Positions 11,543 through 21,857 are shown, numbered from the stretch's first letter. The stretch: DNA of 64,000 bases from Sedimenticola thiotaurini (GCA_007713595.1 VMRY01000020.1:1-64000), one strand, 5' to 3'. Numbers and translations: made by a program. The notes: a model not told the origin generated them from the letters alone.

Positions 11543-11584
11543 ACCAACAATCCTGTACATGGAAAAATATAGAGGGAGATGAAA

Positions 11585-11980
11585 ATGGCTGAACTGTTTT
11601 CTGAGGAGTGGATGCAGAGCTTTATGACGCAGTGGAATGCTGAGTCTGAATTGGTTGGGGCGCTGGAGCAGATAGGTTTTGGCAGTGTGATCGGCTATGG
11701 GTTTGAGGGCGAAGATGCGCCCCGTGGTGTGATTACCATTGAGAATGGAAAGGCTGTTGCTGCTGGGGCTTTTAACGGAGAGACGCTTAATTGGGATATC
11801 CGTTGCAGCGATGCACAATGGAAAAAGTGGATCAGTAAGCCGCCAGGAATGATGGGTCTGGGGATGGCGTTTACCTCCGGTAAAATGAAATTTAAGGTCG
11901 GCGATTACGGTTCAATGCTCAAAGATCCGAGAATGGCTGGCCCCTTTATCAAGAGTTTCACTGTGATGGGTAAGGCTTGA
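11585..11980 (+). CDS. SCP2 sterol-transfer-domain protein
   Basis: 131 residues forming a single SCP2-like fold: GVITIENGKAVAAGAFNGETLNWDIRCSDAQW, then a C-terminal FTSGKMKFKVGDYGSMLKD. SCP2 domains bind hydrophobic ligands such as lipids or isoprenoids in the cytoplasm. ATG 11585 is preferred because an AGGGAG ribosome site is well spaced before it; ATG 11579 is closer than usual to that site. The exact FNR/DNR box upstream is the interesting point: it suggests use under low oxygen or denitrifying conditions. Confidence 0.8.
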   Translation: MAELFSEEWMQSFMTQWNAESELVGALEQIGFGSVIGYGFEGEDAPRGVITIENGKAVAAGAFNGETLNWDIRCSDAQWKKWISKPPGMMGLGMAFTSGKMKFKVGDYGSMLKDPRMAGPFIKSFTVMGKA

Positions 11981-12228: not shown

Positions 12229-13380
12229 ATGGGTATTCAGATCCATGTGATTGCGCTGGCGGCAGCAGTGACTGTCGCTTCAGTTTTACCTCAAGCCAGT
12301 TTGGCCCAGAGTGAGAGTGATTACTTCACTGTCCAGCAGGCGCAAGGTGCTTCCACTGTTTCGCTTGGTGGTACCGTTATGCCTTATAAAGAGGTCACTC
12401 TGTCGGCACAAGTCCCTGGTCGGGTAAAGCATCTTGCCGGTATTGAGGGTGATACCTTTGAGAAGGGTGCCCTGCTCGTTGCTTTGGATGATACGGAGCT
12501 TTTGGCCAAGCGTAATGCGGCACTGGCACAATTAGCCACGGCGGATGCACAAATGCGGTCTGCTGGCATGCAGTACAATAGAGAGCTTTGGTCACCTCAA
12601 TCCAAGCAGTCCATGGGTGGAATGGGACTGCCCAATCTGTTTGACCAGATGTTTACCCGCCCGATGGAGGGGATGTCCGGTACCCGGAATCAAAGTGTGG
12701 AGCGCCGCGCTGATCTCTATAATTCGGGTGTGCAGATTACCCAAGCCCAAAATGGCATCCTCTCAGCACAATCTCAGATCCAGGCCATAGATGCCAAGCT
12801 GCGCGATGCCATCAGTCTCGCGCCATTTGATGGTGTCATCCTGAAAAAGTATGTTGAAGTGGGTGACACAATGCAGCCAGGTCAGCCACTATTGGTCTTT
12901 GCAGATGTTGAATATCTGCAGATTATGGTGGACGTACCTGCCAGTCTGCGTCCCAGTCTCTATGAGCAGATGATGCTTCAGGCTGAACTGGATGTGACCG
13001 GCCAGGTGGTTCCTGTGCGGGTTGCCCAGATCTACCCAACAGCTGATTCCCAGCGTCACACAGTAAAGGTCAAGTTTGACCTGCCGCAAGGGGTCTCCGC
13101 TCCAGGCATGTACGTGAAGGTGAGAGTGCCCGATCTTACGGCCCCTCAAAGAAATCATCCTGTAATTCCAGCTTCGGCCATCCGTTATAACGGCAGTCTG
13201 CCGGGTGTCTATGTTCAGGGAAAGAATAACCGTCCTGAATTACGCCTGATCCGCGTGGGTGAGAGCATGGATAATGGTTACGTCAGCGTCCTCTCCGGCC
13301 TGACTGCCGGTGAGCGGGTGTTACGAAATCCCGGCAATGGGGTCGCTTCCGGTTGGGCCAGTTCGGTCGAGAAGCGCTGA
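12229..13380 (+). CDS. RND efflux periplasmic adaptor (membrane fusion protein)
   Basis: 383 residues with a Sec signal peptide (about 1-26, cut after ASLAQ), a lipoyl/biotinyl-like half domain (VTLSAQVPGRVKHLAGIEGD), an alpha-helical hairpin of about 130 residues with a Met/Gly-rich loop (MGGMGLPNLFDQMFTRPMEG), the second lipoyl half (SLAPFDGVILKKYVEVGD) and beta-barrel domains. It connects the inner-membrane RND pump to an outer-membrane channel. The permease gene follows after 78 bases. No TolC-like gene is present, so a shared outer-membrane channel is probably used. Substrate unknown. Confidence 0.9.
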   Translation: MGIQIHVIALAAAVTVASVLPQASLAQSESDYFTVQQAQGASTVSLGGTVMPYKEVTLSAQVPGRVKHLAGIEGDTFEKGALLVALDDTELLAKRNAALAQLATADAQMRSAGMQYNRELWSPQSKQSMGGMGLPNLFDQMFTRPMEGMSGTRNQSVERRADLYNSGVQITQAQNGILSAQSQIQAIDAKLRDAISLAPFDGVILKKYVEVGDTMQPGQPLLVFADVEYLQIMVDVPASLRPSLYEQMMLQAELDVTGQVVPVRVAQIYPTADSQRHTVKVKFDLPQGVSAPGMYVKVRVPDLTAPQRNHPVIPASAIRYNGSLPGVYVQGKNNRPELRLIRVGESMDNGYVSVLSGLTAGERVLRNPGNGVASGWASSVEKR

Positions 13381-13458: not shown

Positions 13459-16400
13459 ATGATGAATCAGGAAGATGCAAAAAAAGATGATCTGAGCCCA
13501 GTGCAGTTAACCGATGACCAGCTAGGTCTTGCCGGTCGCACCGCTCGTTTCTTCATAAACTCTCCGCTTTCACCCCTGTTTTTTATCTCCATGATGCTCA
13601 TGGGATTGCTCGGGCTGATGATGACCCCGCGCCAGGAAGATCCACAGATTTCTGTTCCGATGGTGGATATCTTCGTTCAGTACTCCGGTGCCTCTGCCGA
13701 TCAGGTTTCCAATCTGGCTATTGAACCGCTTGAACGGATCATGAGTGAAATTGATGGTGTTAAGCATGTCTATTCCGCGTCTCAGCGTGGCATGGGCATG
13801 GTGACCATCGAGTTTGATGTTGGCGAGGAGATGGGCCCTTCACTGGTCAAGGTGAACGATAAACTTGATTCCAACATGGACAAGATTCCACCGGGCGTCT
13901 CACCACCTCTGGTCAAGGCCAAGGGTATTGATGACGTGCCGGTGGTGAATATTACGCTCTGGTCCAAGGATCTGGATGGCAATGGAGCCCCAGATGTCGA
14001 CGATGGCCAGTTACGCATGCTGGCCCATGATGTATTGCAGAGTATCAAGGAGATTCCCGATACCGGTAACGGTTTCGTTGTAGGTGGGCGGGCTGAGCAG
14101 GTCACGATAGAGGTATCCCCAGAGCGACTCTCGGGGTATGGCATCAGCCTCGATCAGGTAGCGAACCGAATCCAGACTTCCAACAGTGAACAGCAGGCGG
14201 GCGGTGTTGAGACTGGCAATACCCGGTTGACCGTAATGACCGGCGCATTCCTGAAGTCCACAGATGATATCAGTCGCTTAGTGATTGGTACGCACAATGA
14301 TGTCCCCGTGTATGTGCATGATGTGGCCAAGGTGATTCAGGGGCCTGAAGATGCTCAGCAACTGGTGGCTTATTACACGGGTCCTGCCGGTGATCAGTCC
14401 CAGCCAGCCAGTGGAATACCGGCTGTCACGATTGCGGTGGCAAAAAAACCTGGCGTCAATGGCGTCACCGTGGCCAACGCCATTCTTGAACGGGTTGAGA
14501 TGCTAAAGGGTGTCCGCATCCCTTCAAACGTTGAAGTGAGCATTACCCGTAACTACGGTGAAACGGCTGAAGACAAGGTTAATGAGCTGATATTTAAGCT
14601 GTTTGTTGCCACTGGCTTCGTATTCCTGTTGGTACTGTTTGCCTTCCGGGCGCTGCGTCCTGCCATTGTCGTGGTACTGGTTATTCCGGTTGTGCTGTTG
14701 ATGACCATCTTCTCTGCCTGGGTTGGCGGTTACACCATCGACCGGGTGAGTCTGTTTGCCTTGATCTTCTCCATCGGTATCCTGGTAGATGACGCTATTG
14801 TGGTGGTGGAAAATATCTATCGGCGCTGGCTGGAGAACGGTAAAACCGATATTGATACCGCCGTCGATGCGGTGCGTGAAGTAGGCAACCCAACCATCCT
14901 GGCAACCTTCACCGTCATCGCAGCTCTGCTGCCGATGGGTTTTGTCAGTGGCATGATGGGGCCGTACATGGAGCCCATTCCGGCATTGGGTTCAGCGGCT
15001 ATGCTGATCTCCCTCTTTGCGGCATTTGTCTTTACCCCGTGGCTGGCCATTTCACGTTGGCTGCGCCCCAGCATGGCCTATCTGGAAGTGGCGGAAGAGC
15101 GGGAAAAAGTCGGTACGGAGCGGTTGGCGCGTTTCTATGAGCGGATTCTTACGCCACTGATCCAATCTTCTACCAAACGGATTATATTCCGCGTGGTGCT
15201 GTGGGGTACCTTCATATTTGCCTGCTCCATGTTCTATACCAAATGGGTGGCAGTGAAGATGCTGCCGCTCGATAACAAACCAGAATTCTCCGTGGTGCTG
15301 GATATGCCAGAAGGCACTGCACTGCCGGTGACGGCTAATCTGGCGCATCAGATAGCCCAGTCACTGCGACAGATGCCTGAAGTGACGGCCCTTCAGGTCT
15401 ATGCTGGTACTGCCCGACCCTTTGATTTCAACGGTATGGTGCGACACTACTATCTACGTCAGGATCCCTGGCAGGCAGAGGTACAGGTTCAGCTGCTGCA
15501 CAAGAGTAAACGCAAGCGAAGCAGTCATCAGATTGCTGTGGCTGCCCGCGAGGTGGTTAAAGGGCTGGTGGCCGAGAGTGGTGCCAAATTTGCAGTTGTC
15601 GAGATGCCGCCTGGCCCACCGGTTTTACAGTCGGTGGTTGCCGAAGTGCATGGACCGACCCCGGAGGTCCGGCGCCAGTTCGCCACTGACCTTACGCAAA
15701 TTTTTGAGCAGGCTGAGAGTCTGGTTGATGTGGATAACTACATGCGGGGCAGCTATGAGTATTGGCTGTTCAAAGTGGATACAGAAAAAGCCGTTAGACG
15801 GGGTATCTCTGTTGATGCAATCAATCGCAATCTCTCCATGGCATTGGGTGGAACGCGCCTGGGTGATGTAAAGCAGAAGGCTGGGCACGAGCCAATAAAT
15901 ATCATTATCCAGGTGCCATTGGCCGAGCGATCACAAATCAACCGCCTCGGGGATCTGCCGATCATGTCGAAGAGCGGTGTTTCATTGCCGTTGCGGGAGC
16001 TGGGATCCTTCGAACGGATGCAGGAAGAGCCGATTATTTATCACAAGGATCTGCGCCCTGTTGAGTATGTGGTTGCCGATGTTGGCGGCGATCTGGCGGC
16101 CCCGGTTTATGGCATGTTCCAGGTTCAGGATATTCTGGCGGATGGCTATACTGCGCCGGATGGTGTGGCGGTTGACGCCTTCTGGTTCAAGCCACCGGCT
16201 GATGATAATCGCTCCAGCATTGAGTGGACGGGCGAGTGGACGGTGACCTTCGAAACCTTCCGCGATATGGGTGCAGCCTTTATGGTTGCATTGGTGCTGA
16301 TCTATATTCTCGTGGTATGGGAGTTTGGTAACTTCCGCATTCCCGCCTTGATCATGGCACCTATACCCCTAACCTTGCTCGGCATTATTCCGATGCATGC

Positions 16401-17457
16401 CATCATGGGTGCTGAGTTTACCGCTACTTCCATGATTGGGTGGATTGCCCTGGCGGGTATCATTGTGCGTAATTCCATCTTGCTGGTGGATTTCTCCATC
16501 CATGAGATTCAGCGGGGGGTCCCGGTCTCAGAGGCAGTTGTCCGCGCTTGTACGACTCGAACCCGCCCCATTATGATTACGGCATTGGCCCTGGTCTGTG
16601 GTTCCAGCGTGATCTTCACTGACCCTATCTTCCAGGGCATGGCGATTTCATTGGCCTCCGGCGTTATGGTATCAACCATTTTGACATTGATTGTTATCCC
16701 GCTGGGTTGTATCAAGGCCAGCACCTCGTTGTGTGAAGTAGCCGCCGCCGGTTTTGATGGCGAAAATGGACCGGCGATCACTCCGGAGGCAGCACCACCT
16801 GCAGACACCCGGCCGGCAACACCCCGCCAGTCATTTGTCATGGCCTTATGGGGTAAGGTTGCCACTGTTCTGCTCATGCTGTTCTATGCAGTGCGTGGCA
16901 TCTTTCTCTTGTTGGGTCAGCTATTACCGAAGCGGGCACCTCAACCAGCGGAGAGTTCAGCTGAAGCTTCGTCAAACGCTGCACCGGAGACGGCCCCACC
17001 GACCACTGTGCAACCCAGTCCGATAGACGGTGCTTCTTCTGAAGAGGCAAACAATCCCTCGGCAGTAGTGGTGGAGACCCCTGTTGATGCTGCTGAAACA
17101 GCAGCGGAGACTGTCAAACCGGCGATAAAACCTTCTGTCTCTACAGTGACTAAAGAGGAGTCGATTGAGTCATTGGCAGCCCCCGAAAGTCAGGAGACAG
17201 TAAAAGCACCGAAGAAAAAGGCCGTTGCGAAAAAGCGGGTCGTGACGAAGAAAAAGGTAGCCACTAAGAAGAAGGTAGCGGCGAAGAAAAAGGCTGTGAA
17301 GCGAGCTGCAACCAAGCCTGAGCCCGTCAAACCCAAATTCCAGGAATCTAAACCGGAACAAGTATCCGATGAGACTGTCTCATTTGATCTTCCTGCGCGG
17401 AAGGGTGGGCGACGGGGGATCAGACTCAAGGTTGATAATGAAAGTGGTATCGAGTGA
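13459..17457 (+). CDS. RND-family transporter permease with lysine-rich C-terminal tail
   Basis: 1332 residues, about 280 more than a typical AcrB-type pump. The standard part covers about 1-1085: first helix FFISMMLMGLLGLMM, porter domains, and the TM4 proton-relay segment IFSIGILVDDAIVVVENIY with paired Asp. After the last family helix come an extra membrane segment (about 1125-1155), a long Ala/Pro/Thr/Glu-rich linker and a Lys/Ala/Val repeat tail (about 1249-1295, KKKVATKKKVAAKKKA) like histone H1 or AlgP. The tail is expected in the cytoplasm if the extra helix is a hairpin, but the topology is uncertain. Start is ATG 13459 or the next codon. Confidence 0.9.
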   Translation: MMNQEDAKKDDLSPVQLTDDQLGLAGRTARFFINSPLSPLFFISMMLMGLLGLMMTPRQEDPQISVPMVDIFVQYSGASADQVSNLAIEPLERIMSEIDGVKHVYSASQRGMGMVTIEFDVGEEMGPSLVKVNDKLDSNMDKIPPGVSPPLVKAKGIDDVPVVNITLWSKDLDGNGAPDVDDGQLRMLAHDVLQSIKEIPDTGNGFVVGGRAEQVTIEVSPERLSGYGISLDQVANRIQTSNSEQQAGGVETGNTRLTVMTGAFLKSTDDISRLVIGTHNDVPVYVHDVAKVIQGPEDAQQLVAYYTGPAGDQSQPASGIPAVTIAVAKKPGVNGVTVANAILERVEMLKGVRIPSNVEVSITRNYGETAEDKVNELIFKLFVATGFVFLLVLFAFRALRPAIVVVLVIPVVLLMTIFSAWVGGYTIDRVSLFALIFSIGILVDDAIVVVENIYRRWLENGKTDIDTAVDAVREVGNPTILATFTVIAALLPMGFVSGMMGPYMEPIPALGSAAMLISLFAAFVFTPWLAISRWLRPSMAYLEVAEEREKVGTERLARFYERILTPLIQSSTKRIIFRVVLWGTFIFACSMFYTKWVAVKMLPLDNKPEFSVVLDMPEGTALPVTANLAHQIAQSLRQMPEVTALQVYAGTARPFDFNGMVRHYYLRQDPWQAEVQVQLLHKSKRKRSSHQIAVAAREVVKGLVAESGAKFAVVEMPPGPPVLQSVVAEVHGPTPEVRRQFATDLTQIFEQAESLVDVDNYMRGSYEYWLFKVDTEKAVRRGISVDAINRNLSMALGGTRLGDVKQKAGHEPINIIIQVPLAERSQINRLGDLPIMSKSGVSLPLRELGSFERMQEEPIIYHKDLRPVEYVVADVGGDLAAPVYGMFQVQDILADGYTAPDGVAVDAFWFKPPADDNRSSIEWTGEWTVTFETFRDMGAAFMVALVLIYILVVWEFGNFRIPALIMAPIPLTLLGIIPMHAIMGAEFTATSMIGWIALAGIIVRNSILLVDFSIHEIQRGVPVSEAVVRACTTRTRPIMITALALVCGSSVIFTDPIFQGMAISLASGVMVSTILTLIVIPLGCIKASTSLCEVAAAGFDGENGPAITPEAAPPADTRPATPRQSFVMALWGKVATVLLMLFYAVRGIFLLLGQLLPKRAPQPAESSAEASSNAAPETAPPTTVQPSPIDGASSEEANNPSAVVVETPVDAAETAAETVKPAIKPSVSTVTKEESIESLAAPESQETVKAPKKKAVAKKRVVTKKKVATKKKVAAKKKAVKRAATKPEPVKPKFQESKPEQVSDETVSFDLPARKGGRRGIRLKVDNESGIE

Positions 17458-17948
17458 GCCTGGTGCAATACATTGGGATCAGACGTAAAGGAAAGGGTAT
17501 CTTGTTGGGTTTGGTTTGCCTGCTAATGACAACTCAGTTCGCTATGGCTGGGGGAGCGCCAACTGGTTTTGGTAATTTTCGTCCGCTTGACCAGTCGACT
17601 GAAAAGGCGCAGACCAAAAAATTGCCGGATCGTTATTCGGGCGGTATGGGGTATCAGATCCGACCACTGGCACCCGTACCACATGCGCCTGCAGTTCCCT
17701 ATCGGTATCGTACCCCCGCATCAGATGCCAAAGGTCGGTATGCTATGCCCAGAGGTCAGGGCCAGTCGATTGCGCCACGCTTTAATCCCTGGGAAAGGCG
17801 AACGGATTCTGTTGACTGGGGTAGTAATCCGCCTTTAATCCCTCAGCGGCGTGACTTTTCCAATAACCCGATCATCGCCCCCGAGCAGATACATCCGGGT
17901 TACCGTTTTCGTCCGCAAGGTAAAAAGCAAAATAAATCAAATAGATAA
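17454..17948 (+). CDS. Exported Pro/Arg/Tyr-rich protein of unknown function
   Basis: About 164 residues. The GTG start overlaps the RND stop (GTGA), showing translational coupling. A positively charged N-terminus, a hydrophobic stretch (ILLGLVCLLMTTQFAMA) and an AMAGG site make a Sec signal peptide. The mature part is rich in Pro, Arg, Tyr, Gly and Asn with motifs such as YRYRTP and GYRFRPQG, and looks disordered. It resembles the composition of the protein at 18844-19758. I recognise no domain. It may be an envelope or matrix protein linked to the pump. Confidence 0.7.
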   Translation: MSLVQYIGIRRKGKGILLGLVCLLMTTQFAMAGGAPTGFGNFRPLDQSTEKAQTKKLPDRYSGGMGYQIRPLAPVPHAPAVPYRYRTPASDAKGRYAMPRGQGQSIAPRFNPWERRTDSVDWGSNPPLIPQRRDFSNNPIIAPEQIHPGYRFRPQGKKQNKSNR

Positions 17949-18028
17949 TAAATCGCAAGGTCGATAGAGCACGGCTTAAAGGCGAGCAGTTGGTCATTTG
18001 TAGTTGGACCGGCAAATCGGAGGTAAAG

Positions 18029-18790
18029 ATGTCAGGTTTTCGTCAGGTTTTCTTTTTAAGTTGCACCATGATGTTTATTGGTGGGGGGGCTGCTAAGGCT
18101 GCCTCGCCCGCAGCTGTGGAATTTTCAGCTGATACCTACCAGACTGGCCCGGATCAGACGGAAAGGGTTGGCCATATCTATGTTGGAAAAAATCGAATCC
18201 GCAGCGAAATGGAGCAGCATGGCCAACAGGTAGTAAATATCATAGACTCGGAGAAGCAGGTGACTTGGGTCTTATATCCACAGCAGCAAAGCTATATCGA
18301 GTATCCAATGGGGGGCGCAGAGGGAGCAGCTACACTCAAGGGGAGTCCATGCGAAGGCATACCCGGAGCACAGTGCAAAAAACTGGGCGATGATAAAATC
18401 CAAGGTAGGAGTGCAACAAAATGGGATGTTTTAGTGAAGGGGCAGGGGGGATCTATGCGGAGTACCCAATGGATAGGTAAACAGCGCTCTATCCTGTTAC
18501 GCCAGGAGATTCAGGGTGGTCCAATTATGGAGCAACGCATGTTGGCTGTTGAAGAACTCAACGGTCGTCAGGTGGAGAAGTGGGAGATGACCGTGTCTCA
18601 GAATAACCAGTCGCCCCAAAGCTCTGCACGCTGGTTTGATCCGGAGCTGAACCTGGCAATTAAAGAGGTGAATGCTGCGGGTTATGTGCGTGAATTGAAA
18701 AACATCGCGATTGGCATACAAGACCCGGTGCTCTTCACTATTCCCGATTACTTTAAGAAAATTGTGCCCCAGCCACAGCCGGCCAGATGA
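18029..18790 (+). CDS. Periplasmic DUF4412-like protein
   Basis: 253 residues starting at ATG 18029 behind a good GGAGGTAAAG ribosome site. A Sec signal peptide (MSGFRQVFFLSCTMMFIGG, cut near AKAASP) is followed by a LolA-like beta-sheet domain: VGKNRIRSEMEQHGQQVVNI, WVLYPQQQSYIEYP and FTIPDYFKKI. The pattern fits DUF4412 (lipoprotein-carrier-like fold), whose exact function is not known. Two cysteines in CEGIPGAQCKKLG may form a disulfide. The gene lies in the RND gene group and probably acts in the periplasm. Confidence 0.65.
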   Translation: MSGFRQVFFLSCTMMFIGGGAAKAASPAAVEFSADTYQTGPDQTERVGHIYVGKNRIRSEMEQHGQQVVNIIDSEKQVTWVLYPQQQSYIEYPMGGAEGAATLKGSPCEGIPGAQCKKLGDDKIQGRSATKWDVLVKGQGGSMRSTQWIGKQRSILLRQEIQGGPIMEQRMLAVEELNGRQVEKWEMTVSQNNQSPQSSARWFDPELNLAIKEVNAAGYVRELKNIAIGIQDPVLFTIPDYFKKIVPQPQPAR

Positions 18791-18843: not shown

Positions 18844-19758
18844 ATGATCAGAATGACACAACTATTTGCGATATTGGCTGGATTAACTGTCATGCCGCTA
18901 TTTTCCGGGCAAGCCATTGCAGCACCCTATGGTTTGCCGCAAAACATGGTTCCGGCGTATATGCCGGCGTCACCTTCTCAGGGGGTTGCGCGTTTTCGCC
19001 CGCATTATCGTATGCAGCAACCGGTTCGTTATCTGCCACCCCGCTATGTAGCACAGCGTGGAATGGCACCTGTGCAGTATCGCCCTGTTCGCAGGGCTGT
19101 TGCATGGCCGCTGCCAGTCAGCTATAGACCGATTGCCCAAGCACCTCGCTCGCCAATGGGAGCCCAGTTCTATCCTCGGATGAGACAGGCAGCCCATCCC
19201 TATCCAGTCGCAATGCCAGGTTATCAGGGAAGACCCATGCCGAGAATGGCCTATGACTACCCCTATGCTCAGCGGCCGATGCCTTGGCGAGGTGCACCAC
19301 CTGCCCATCGGGGATTCAGTGGACACCGCTACCCTGCACCAGCGAATTACCGACCACCTAATGCCTGGATACCACCAGTAAGATCCGCTATGCGTCCGCC
19401 TGTCTACGGTTATCCCCAGCTGCAAAGGCCCTCCCAGCTGGTTCAGCAATCTATGCCCGGAAGAGTGGCGCGCTATCAGCCCTATAATAATCGCAATGGA
19501 TCGCACCAAAACTACCGTTTTCGATCAGTGCCACCGACAATGGCCTATCAGTCACCGCCTGTTTTGTTGCCGAATAATCCGCGCCAGGGATATCCGATGA
19601 ATTATCGCTATAGACCTGATCTTCGCTATCCCTATGCTATTTCAGGTCAACGTTCGTACCCCTTCAGGTCAGCGCCTGTGTACTATCCTGAAAGGATTAC
19701 TGCTCGGCAGAATAATGCATTAGCTTGGTCGGATGCGCCGTATCAGGCAAGGTACTGA
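18844..19758 (+). CDS. Exported Tyr/Pro/Arg-rich low-complexity protein
   Basis: 304 residues. The N-terminal hydrophobic segment (LFAILAGLTVMPLFSG) with AIAAPY is a Sec signal peptide. The rest is unusually rich in Pro, Tyr, Arg, Met, Gln and Ala, with repeated short units such as YRPxx, RYxPP, YPYA and NYRYRP, and almost no acidic residues, so the protein is strongly basic. I recognise no domain. Such Tyr/Arg-rich proteins can phase-separate or be cross-linked through tyrosine. It shares composition with the protein at 17454-17948, suggesting related roles. Confidence 0.7.
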   Translation: MIRMTQLFAILAGLTVMPLFSGQAIAAPYGLPQNMVPAYMPASPSQGVARFRPHYRMQQPVRYLPPRYVAQRGMAPVQYRPVRRAVAWPLPVSYRPIAQAPRSPMGAQFYPRMRQAAHPYPVAMPGYQGRPMPRMAYDYPYAQRPMPWRGAPPAHRGFSGHRYPAPANYRPPNAWIPPVRSAMRPPVYGYPQLQRPSQLVQQSMPGRVARYQPYNNRNGSHQNYRFRSVPPTMAYQSPPVLLPNNPRQGYPMNYRYRPDLRYPYAISGQRSYPFRSAPVYYPERITARQNNALAWSDAPYQARY

Positions 19759-19818: not shown

Positions 19819-20451
19819 ATGATTACAGTTGTAGGTAGCCTGAAAGGCGGTTCTGGAAAAAGTACCGTTACATTCAATCTCGCTGTCTGGCTTGCCATGG
19901 CCGAAGTGGATGTTCAGGTTGTTGATTTAGACCCCCAGGCCACATTAAGGGATGTAGCAGAGGTTCGTGACGAAGAGGGGTATCGCCCCAAGATTTCTGT
20001 TAAGGGTAAAAAATATCTGGATATTGATAAGCTACGGCGTGCTGATGAAGTGCTGATTGATATTGGTACGGCGGATATTGAAATGATGAAGCAGGCCATC
20101 CGTTACGCGGACCGGATCCTTGTTCCAGTACCCCCATCTCAGGCTGATATCTGGTCAACCCAGCGCTTCATTCAGTTTGTAAATTCAGTAACAGACGGGC
20201 ATTCTCCTGAGATTATAGGTTTTATCAATCGGGGCGATACCCACCATGCGGTGCGCGAAACGGACGAGGCTGCAGCCGCACTGGTTACATTACCTGGTAT
20301 GAAATTCATAAAACCACGTCTCTCACAGCGGACGATATTTAGACGCTCCTTTAGTGAAGGACTTGCGGTGTTTGAACTGAATCAAAGGGGAAAAGGGGCG
20401 AAAGAGCTCTCTTCGCTTTGTGCCAAGCTTTATCCCAACGTGCTGAAATAG
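19819..20451 (+). CDS. ParA-family ATPase (orphan, VirC1-like size)
   Basis: 210 residues with the deviant Walker A motif LKGGSGKST (8-16), a nucleotide-binding VVDLDPQAT, and a Walker B-like DEVLIDIGTAD. ParA/MinD-type ATPases position DNA or protein complexes on the nucleoid or membrane. No ParB-like gene or parS-like repeat is nearby, and the gene sits in the group of RND and exported protein genes. Positioning of an envelope machine is therefore at least as likely as plasmid partition. Start ATG is clear. Confidence 0.85.
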   Translation: MITVVGSLKGGSGKSTVTFNLAVWLAMAEVDVQVVDLDPQATLRDVAEVRDEEGYRPKISVKGKKYLDIDKLRRADEVLIDIGTADIEMMKQAIRYADRILVPVPPSQADIWSTQRFIQFVNSVTDGHSPEIIGFINRGDTHHAVRETDEAAAALVTLPGMKFIKPRLSQRTIFRRSFSEGLAVFELNQRGKGAKELSSLCAKLYPNVLK

Positions 20452-21122: not shown

Positions 21123-21368
21123 TATCCTGGTTAGCGAGCGAACATCTGGTCGATTCTGTTTGCTGCCCCGGCCAATTTGGTAAAAAACGGCTATCACTCC
21201 GGGCTTGTCAGCCTGGGAATTTTCCTACTATAAATCAATCTCATCGCGTTATTTCAGTTAAAAGAATGGTGCTTATGAAACTTATAATGTGATACTATAT
21301 TAGAAATCTATGATATTAGCGATAATTAAATTACTTTGCTGGCATGCGTTGGTGCGAGGATAGGGATA

Positions 21369-21857
21369 ATGACCCAGAATAATGACAATATCGATCAGCG
21401 ACAGGAACCGCTAAAAGAGCCGATCTACTCAATTGATCGACTTTCAGAGGCCTTTGAAACCAGTGCACGGCGCTGGGAGCTGATTGTTTATCCCTCCTTA
21501 TTTGCGTTTATTATTCTTGCTGCGTATGGCTTTTTTCTGGTCTACAGCCTAGCTAAAGATGTGCACTATTTGGCTGTGAGTGTAGACTCCAACATGACTG
21601 TTCTCGCCGGTAATATGCAATCTGTCTCAGACAATATGGGGAATATGACCAGCAATATTAAGGTGATGTCGGATCATATGGCTGAAATTAATCAAAAAGT
21701 GGGTACGCTTGAACCCATGCTGGTCACTATCGGATCCATGGACCGTTCCATGGAATCAATGACCCAATCGACCTACATCATGCGAAATGATATCTCCAGA
21801 ATGAACCAGAATATCTCACGCCCGATGTCATTTATGAATACTTTTTTGCCCTGGTAA
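21369..21857 (+). CDS. Single-pass membrane protein with methionine-rich coiled coil
   Basis: 162 residues from ATG 21369, which follows a GAGGATAGGG ribosome site. The N-terminal 40 residues are cytoplasmic and hydrophilic, then one membrane helix (SLFAFIILAAYGFFLVYSL), then a heptad-like region with repeated Asn/Met (GNMQSVSDNMGNMTSNIKVM). The repeat resembles the periplasmic or signalling helices of chemoreceptor-like proteins, but no receptor tip is present. No known domain is recognised. An extended -10-like TATAAT lies at 21283-21288. Confidence 0.6.
   Translation: MTQNNDNIDQRQEPLKEPIYSIDRLSEAFETSARRWELIVYPSLFAFIILAAYGFFLVYSLAKDVHYLAVSVDSNMTVLAGNMQSVSDNMGNMTSNIKVMSDHMAEINQKVGTLEPMLVTIGSMDRSMESMTQSTYIMRNDISRMNQNISRPMSFMNTFLPW

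Follow-up and report, generated by a model that had tools for sequence, protein, structure and literature searches.

A conserved C-terminal motif on the tail of an RND permease and its co-occurrence with an orphan ParA-type ATPase

Why should a permease of the resistance-nodulation-division (RND) type carry some 250 residues beyond the point at which its family ends? The question is raised by a locus in a 64,000-nucleotide stretch of Sedimenticola thiotaurini DNA (GCA_007713595.1, VMRY01000020.1:1-64000), the whole of which is referred to here as the window. An earlier note, made from the sequence alone, had described an extension with a histone H1-like lysine-rich repeat and an extra hydrophobic segment at the C-terminus of this permease, and both are present as described. 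Our analysis places the conserved part of the tail elsewhere, in the terminal motif RRGIRLK, which went unmentioned in that note and which co-occurs with a ParA-type ATPase encoded downstream of the pump. What was a vague oddity, a histone-like tail, is thereby reduced to a testable motif of seven residues.

The tail and its terminal motif

The permease open reading frame (ORF; 13459-17457, plus strand, as are all features below unless stated) is intact, running from ATG to TGA over 1332 aa. Residues 1083-1332 (16705-17454) constitute an extension, because the Pfam and NCBIfam RND models end at aa 1081-1084. These 250 residues are predicted to be disordered in an AlphaFold2 model of a construct comprising aa 573-1332, with pLDDT values mostly below 45 except over a single helix. 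Homologous tails, of 97-411 aa, were found throughout the family to which the window belongs, in Thiotrichaceae, and in a second class (Magnetococcales); the 134 non-redundant ones of at least 80 aa from other genomes, which form our tail set, rule out a frame error or a one-off tail. The earlier claim that such a tail is very unusual for an RND pump is borne out. Genomes of the same family also contain untailed paralogues (ORFs of ~1070-1130 aa, 55-65% or ~44% identical to the permease), and the tail is therefore not a general RND feature. Two untailed paralogues of ~60% identity, G018:C60 (L248) and G006:C4 (L249), share a genome with a tailed pump and offer a natural control for the role of the tail.

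The sole strongly conserved block of the tail is RRGIRLK (aa 1318-1324; 17410-17430). An alignment of 46 sequences, mostly tails that bear the motif, shows no variation at the first Arg and at least 90% conservation at each of the following five positions, while the rest of the tail does not align. The pattern [X]RGI[RQ][LIMV][KR] is present in 120 of the 134 tails, the majority being exactly RRGIRLK, and the 14 negative tails comprise five that are cut at contig ends, two near variants (RRGIRLL and WRGIRLN), and seven that are motif-less. In the whole source genome (3.86 Mb, 162 contigs) RRGIRLK gives one hit and a reversed control pattern none, so that a common genomic peptide is ruled out. 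Furthermore, 138 tails use 97 different 21-mers to encode the peptide, and selection therefore acts on the peptide itself. A literature search with RRGIRLK as a text string returned no match in the papers covered.

The lysine-rich repeat (aa 1249-1286; 17203-17316) includes an 18-bp tandem unit at 17245-17293, present in 2.7 copies, and is strongly basic in the window, with 17 Lys in 40 residues. It varies among homologues: lysine content across the 134 tails ranges from 2.4 to 21%, with values of 2-5% in many motif-bearing ones, and no repeat is conserved. Since RRGIRLK persists over this range, the repeat is rejected as the conserved element of a histone H1-like or AlgP-type tail, and the earlier idea that it is itself the functional part, binding nucleic acid or acidic polymers, is not supported.

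The extra membrane segment that had been proposed corresponds to a hydrophobic helix of 30 residues (aa 1126-1155; 16834-16923), modelled by AlphaFold2 as one helix (residues 554-583 of the construct) and, by its hydropathy (KD-19 of 2.3; simple insertion sum of -0.8), either borderline transmembrane or in-plane. Hence the segment exists, but it is dispensable, as most second-class tails have no counterpart of it. In the tail of L098, a homologue without RRGIRLK and without ParA, the hydrophobic segment is apparently duplicated, with two FYxxRA copies.

Co-occurrence of the motif with a ParA-type ATPase

The putative partner of the tail is an orphan ParA-type ATPase of 210 aa (19819-20451), proposed on the basis of domain, fold, synteny, and co-occurrence. 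This protein carries the deviant Walker A KGGSGKST and the A' motif DLDPQ of the ParA/MinD signature, and in 45 sequences residues K9, G10, G11, G13, K14, S15, T16, D36, D38, and Q40 are invariant, as are further residues in the PSQADxW, NRxDxH, and RxSFSEG blocks. Its predicted model (pLDDT 93) has a ParA fold, with TP228 ParA/ParF as the top PDB matches (TM ~0.82). The nearest fold is TP228 ParF/ParA (5u1g, E 9.4e-13), in a set that includes the complex with ParB/ParG, and the nearest relative by sequence is likewise ParF (4dzz), at ~22% identity. A ParB, which adjoins ParA in ParABS partition systems, was recognised beside ParA neither in the window, where the neighbours are DUF302 and coiled-coil proteins, nor in the Thiotrichaceae loci that were read. 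In most sufficiently long loci, including those of Magnetococcales, the ParA gene follows the start of the permease at a distance of 4-10 kb and in the same orientation.

At a threshold of E<=1e-40, a ParA orthologue is present in 166 of 194 genomes of the window's family. With a strict DNA pattern for the motif, 137 of the 194 possess both motif and ParA, 22 neither, 29 ParA only, and 6 the motif only (Fisher p 3.6e-10, relatedness ignored). In those of the pattern-negative, ParA-positive genomes that were read, complete tails bear variants such as RRGIRLR, RRGIQLK, RRGIRLL, and WRGIRLN, the other tails being cut at contig ends. Among the motif-only genomes, G014 carries, where a contig breaks off, a fragment of ParA that is 78% identical, and the match in G017 reads SSGIRLK and lies on a contig other than that of its permease. 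Relaxed ParA searches of the 28 ParA-negative genomes of the family recovered, G014 aside, distant ParA relatives only or nothing.

The same association is evident at the level of the proteins. Both states are known for 121 tailed homologues, of which 109 have motif and ParA, seven have neither, five have the motif only, and none has ParA only. The motif-less complete tails all come from genomes without a ParA orthologue: L098 and L102 have no motif at all, and the corresponding residues read RRGMELK in L104, RNSIQLK in L105, QRSVPLK in L109, RRSLELK in L112, and TRKSVRIK in G008/L145. The nearly complete genome G008 retains the pump, the tail, the adaptor, the 133-aa protein, and the coiled-coil gene described below, and is without ParA and without the motif. 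Motif and ATPase are thus kept or lost together, in few independent events. L111, with RRGIQLK and ParA, nests within a clade of motif-less, ParA-less Thiotrichaceae, and several events must therefore have occurred there. On the core tree, among independent pairs that differ in the motif, ParA changes the same way in ~5/6 and the opposite way in none; at a sign test p of 0.03-0.125, these paired changes are suggestive rather than strong.

The association extends beyond the window's class. In a phylum-wide sample, 38 genomes outside the class have a ParA orthologue, and these genomes, picked only for having ParA, were searched for the permease. Matches were obtained in 36 of them, the two others being drafts less than 85% complete, and all 34 intact second-class tails that were read (30 from the resulting loci plus another four) terminate in RRGIR[LM][KR]. 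In several second-class families permease and ParA lie on different contigs and both are kept; in Thiotrichaceae there is no same-strand ParA within 8 kb of the pump, yet both are kept. Such unlinked cases weaken the view that the two co-occur through operon linkage only, and linkage therefore cannot be the whole explanation. A connection between the pump and ParA, which the earlier note had hinted at from the gene downstream, is probable, since ParA and the motif that ends the tail co-occur in two classes whether or not their genes are linked.

A candidate cargo system and its rivals

We propose that the tail makes the RND permease a cargo of a dedicated ParA-type ATPase. The long disordered tether at the cytoplasmic end of the permease would bear RRGIRLK near its tip, and the peptide would dock on the ATP-bound, DNA-bound ParA dimer on the nucleoid, where it would stimulate ATP hydrolysis and release, much as the ParG tail acts on ParF. 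Through repeated binding and release, pump complexes in the inner membrane could then become spaced along the nucleoid or be shared out when the cell divides, and the lysine and Pro/Ala/Gly/Ser-rich stretches would act as a spacer, possibly with weak nonspecific binding. On balance, we lean slightly towards RRGIRLK being a cargo-side docking and ATPase-activating peptide, presented on a disordered tether to a ParA that positions or partitions the pump. The chances appear evenly balanced that a dedicated ParA governs the positioning or partition of an RND efflux or export machine by way of a tether and tag built into the C-terminus of the permease.

RND pumps are generally treated as passively placed in the envelope, and the unequal inheritance of AcrAB-TolC has been discussed as a passive old-pole bias. 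If our proposal is correct, the pump would be an actively positioned trans-envelope transporter and a new class of cargo for ParA systems; the orphan ParA would gain a partner, and tag and ATPase would together make a compact pair by which membrane cargo could be moved. The co-retention of motif and ParA across two bacterial classes suggests that the pump may be positioned or handed down as plasmids are.

Two sets of known systems offer precedents. In TP228, ParG residues 15-23, which are disordered when free, activate ParF; Gly16 packs at the dimer and Arg19 stimulates the ATPase (PMC5393062). RRGIRLK, which has a Gly between Arg and aliphatic residues in a tail predicted to be disordered, fits this ParG-type pattern by analogy. 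ParG, however, serves a plasmid as its DNA-binding adaptor, and its peptide is N-terminal, whereas the peptide proposed here is C-terminal, within an integral membrane pump, and there is no centromere. According to a study of several ParA/MinD ATPases in one sulfur oxidiser, partner proteins generally interact through a terminus that is disordered and positively charged, and they may themselves belong physically to the cargo (PMC10241942). The predicted disordered tail with its conserved RRGIRLK may be a partner segment of this kind. Indeed, protein-cargo systems (McdA of carboxysomes, FlhG of flagella, and the chemotaxis-cluster ATPases) resemble the present locus in that a single ParA-type ATPase without ParB is encoded near the cargo genes; they differ in that the proposed cargo here is an RND transporter, efflux being unmentioned in PMC10241942. 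A literature search on RND pumps with ParA and polar or nucleoid location yielded nothing relevant. We refer to the locus as a candidate ParA cargo system, with the RND permease as its cargo.

Several points weigh against this proposal. The independent events are few, and tail-bearing proteins alone give only 3-4 pairs. In five tailed homologues (L083/G055, G018, G084, G048, and L089), all from draft genomes, the motif is present and no ParA was found; the contigs of G018 and G084 end ~2 kb past the pump, and G055 has nearly 14 kb downstream of the pump without ParA. Linkage accounts for part of the co-loss of motif and ParA. Known ParA partner peptides, moreover, are usually N-terminal. To these must be added the gene for a single-transmembrane coiled-coil protein downstream of ParA (21336-21857, from domain search and synteny), which adjoins ParA in most Chromatiales loci and in Magnetococcales, and the topology of the tail.

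The coiled-coil gene brings with it the first rival explanation: the tail with RRGIRLK and ParA would form one module, in which the coiled-coil membrane protein is the partner of ParA and the tail has another binding target within the complex. This seems unlikely to us, though by no means negligible. In ParA-bearing Thiotrichaceae no coiled-coil gene could be recognised next to either ParA or the pump (it was not sought genome-wide), and the motif follows ParA rather than the coiled-coil gene, because G008 keeps the latter and has lost both ParA and the motif.

Topology is the weakest point of the ParA proposal. RND cores are expected to end in the cytoplasm after the twelfth transmembrane segment (TM12), and here the core ends at TM12 and is followed by the further hydrophobic helix. 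At 30 residues, and with a median simple sum of -0.58 over 100 tails, this helix is hydrophobic enough to insert, and in Chromatiales it could be a true 13th transmembrane segment. Should the helix cross the membrane, the motif lies in the periplasm and the ParA model does not hold for the window's clade; the tail might then bind peptidoglycan, lipopolysaccharide, or an envelope protein, with the ParA link a matter of operon history. We hold this to be quite unlikely. Homologues without the helix, in the second class, keep motif and ParA, and the motif would thus need to function in the periplasm of one group and in the cytoplasm of the other. In 70% of cases, Lys/Arg residues are more numerous in the flank that follows the helix than in the one that precedes it, contrary to the positive-inside rule for an outward tail, and the unlinked co-occurrence speaks against operon history. 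An in-plane or re-entrant helix would, as a model, reconcile the topology data, and we infer a cytoplasmic location of the tail in Chromatiales.

A direct binding of DNA or an acidic polymer by the lysine-rich repeat, which would tether the pump to the nucleoid and make ParA a bystander, is improbable. The basic character of the window's repeat and the long KKA/KKP arrays in the tails of several relatives would suit it, but RRGIRLK stays in the many homologues whose tails are poor in lysine, and the co-occurrence with ParA is left unexplained. Finally, RRGIRLK is hardly a general tag (for degradation, or for membrane-surface or chaperone binding) unrelated to ParA, with the co-occurrence reflecting shared ancestry and linkage, since the scarcity of independent losses and the five motif-only cases that favor such a tag are set against the retention of both in more than one class even when unlinked, and against their joint decay in several lineages.

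The RND core and the neighbouring genes

The permease core (aa 1-1082; 13459-16704) matches PF00873 (ACR_tran) over aa 29-1082 at full length (profile 2-1015 of 1021, E 5.5e-144). Its best NCBIfam score is 434 bits, which is under that model's cut-off of 1250, and the closest solved structure by sequence is 6vej, an RND efflux transporter (E 3.5e-67). The best named homologues (Sedimenticola, gammaproteobacterium) are 81-88% identical. With the HAE-type RND permeases (6vej, NF033617) the protein shares the full-length core domain and a paired periplasmic adaptor, and it is unlike them in adding ~250 C-terminal residues with RRGIRLK. One membrane helix of the core (aa 1000-1012; 16456-16494), which reads GIIVRNSILLVDF, is nearly invariant in 46 homologues. 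It has an Arg at the position where AcrB-type pumps have the proton-relay Lys, and judging from this residue the proton relay may be different from that of the AcrB type.

Upstream of the permease lies the periplasmic adaptor (membrane fusion protein) of the same pump (12229-13380; TIGR01730, 153.9 bits, over the cut-off), which adjoins the permease in nearly all complete loci. It is preceded by a conserved protein of 133 aa (11579-11980), which belongs to no Pfam or NCBIfam family and travels with the pump; the protein is found upstream of the adaptor in many loci, including those of ParA-less Thiotrichaceae and Rhodobium, and is 55-88% identical where found. A likeness to SCP2-type proteins is apparent by eye only.

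On the 3' side of the permease the order is a 164-aa protein, a DUF4412 protein, a 304-aa protein, ParA, a DUF302 protein, and the coiled-coil membrane protein. The DUF4412 protein (17990-18790; PF14371, 22.3 bits) occurs in 41 loci. The 164-aa protein (17454-17948) and the Pro/Tyr/Arg-rich 304-aa protein (18844-19758) have no family match and are recognisable in close relatives only; in Magnetococcales (L122, L124, and L125), Gly/Asn/Trp-rich small proteins are encoded at a similar place before ParA. Promoter and terminator scans gave results near chance levels. A dynamin-family GTPase (PF00350; 9657-11198, minus strand) recurs as a conserved neighbour, in 49 loci; two genomes from outside the class (L238 and L239) also encode it close to both the pump and ParA.

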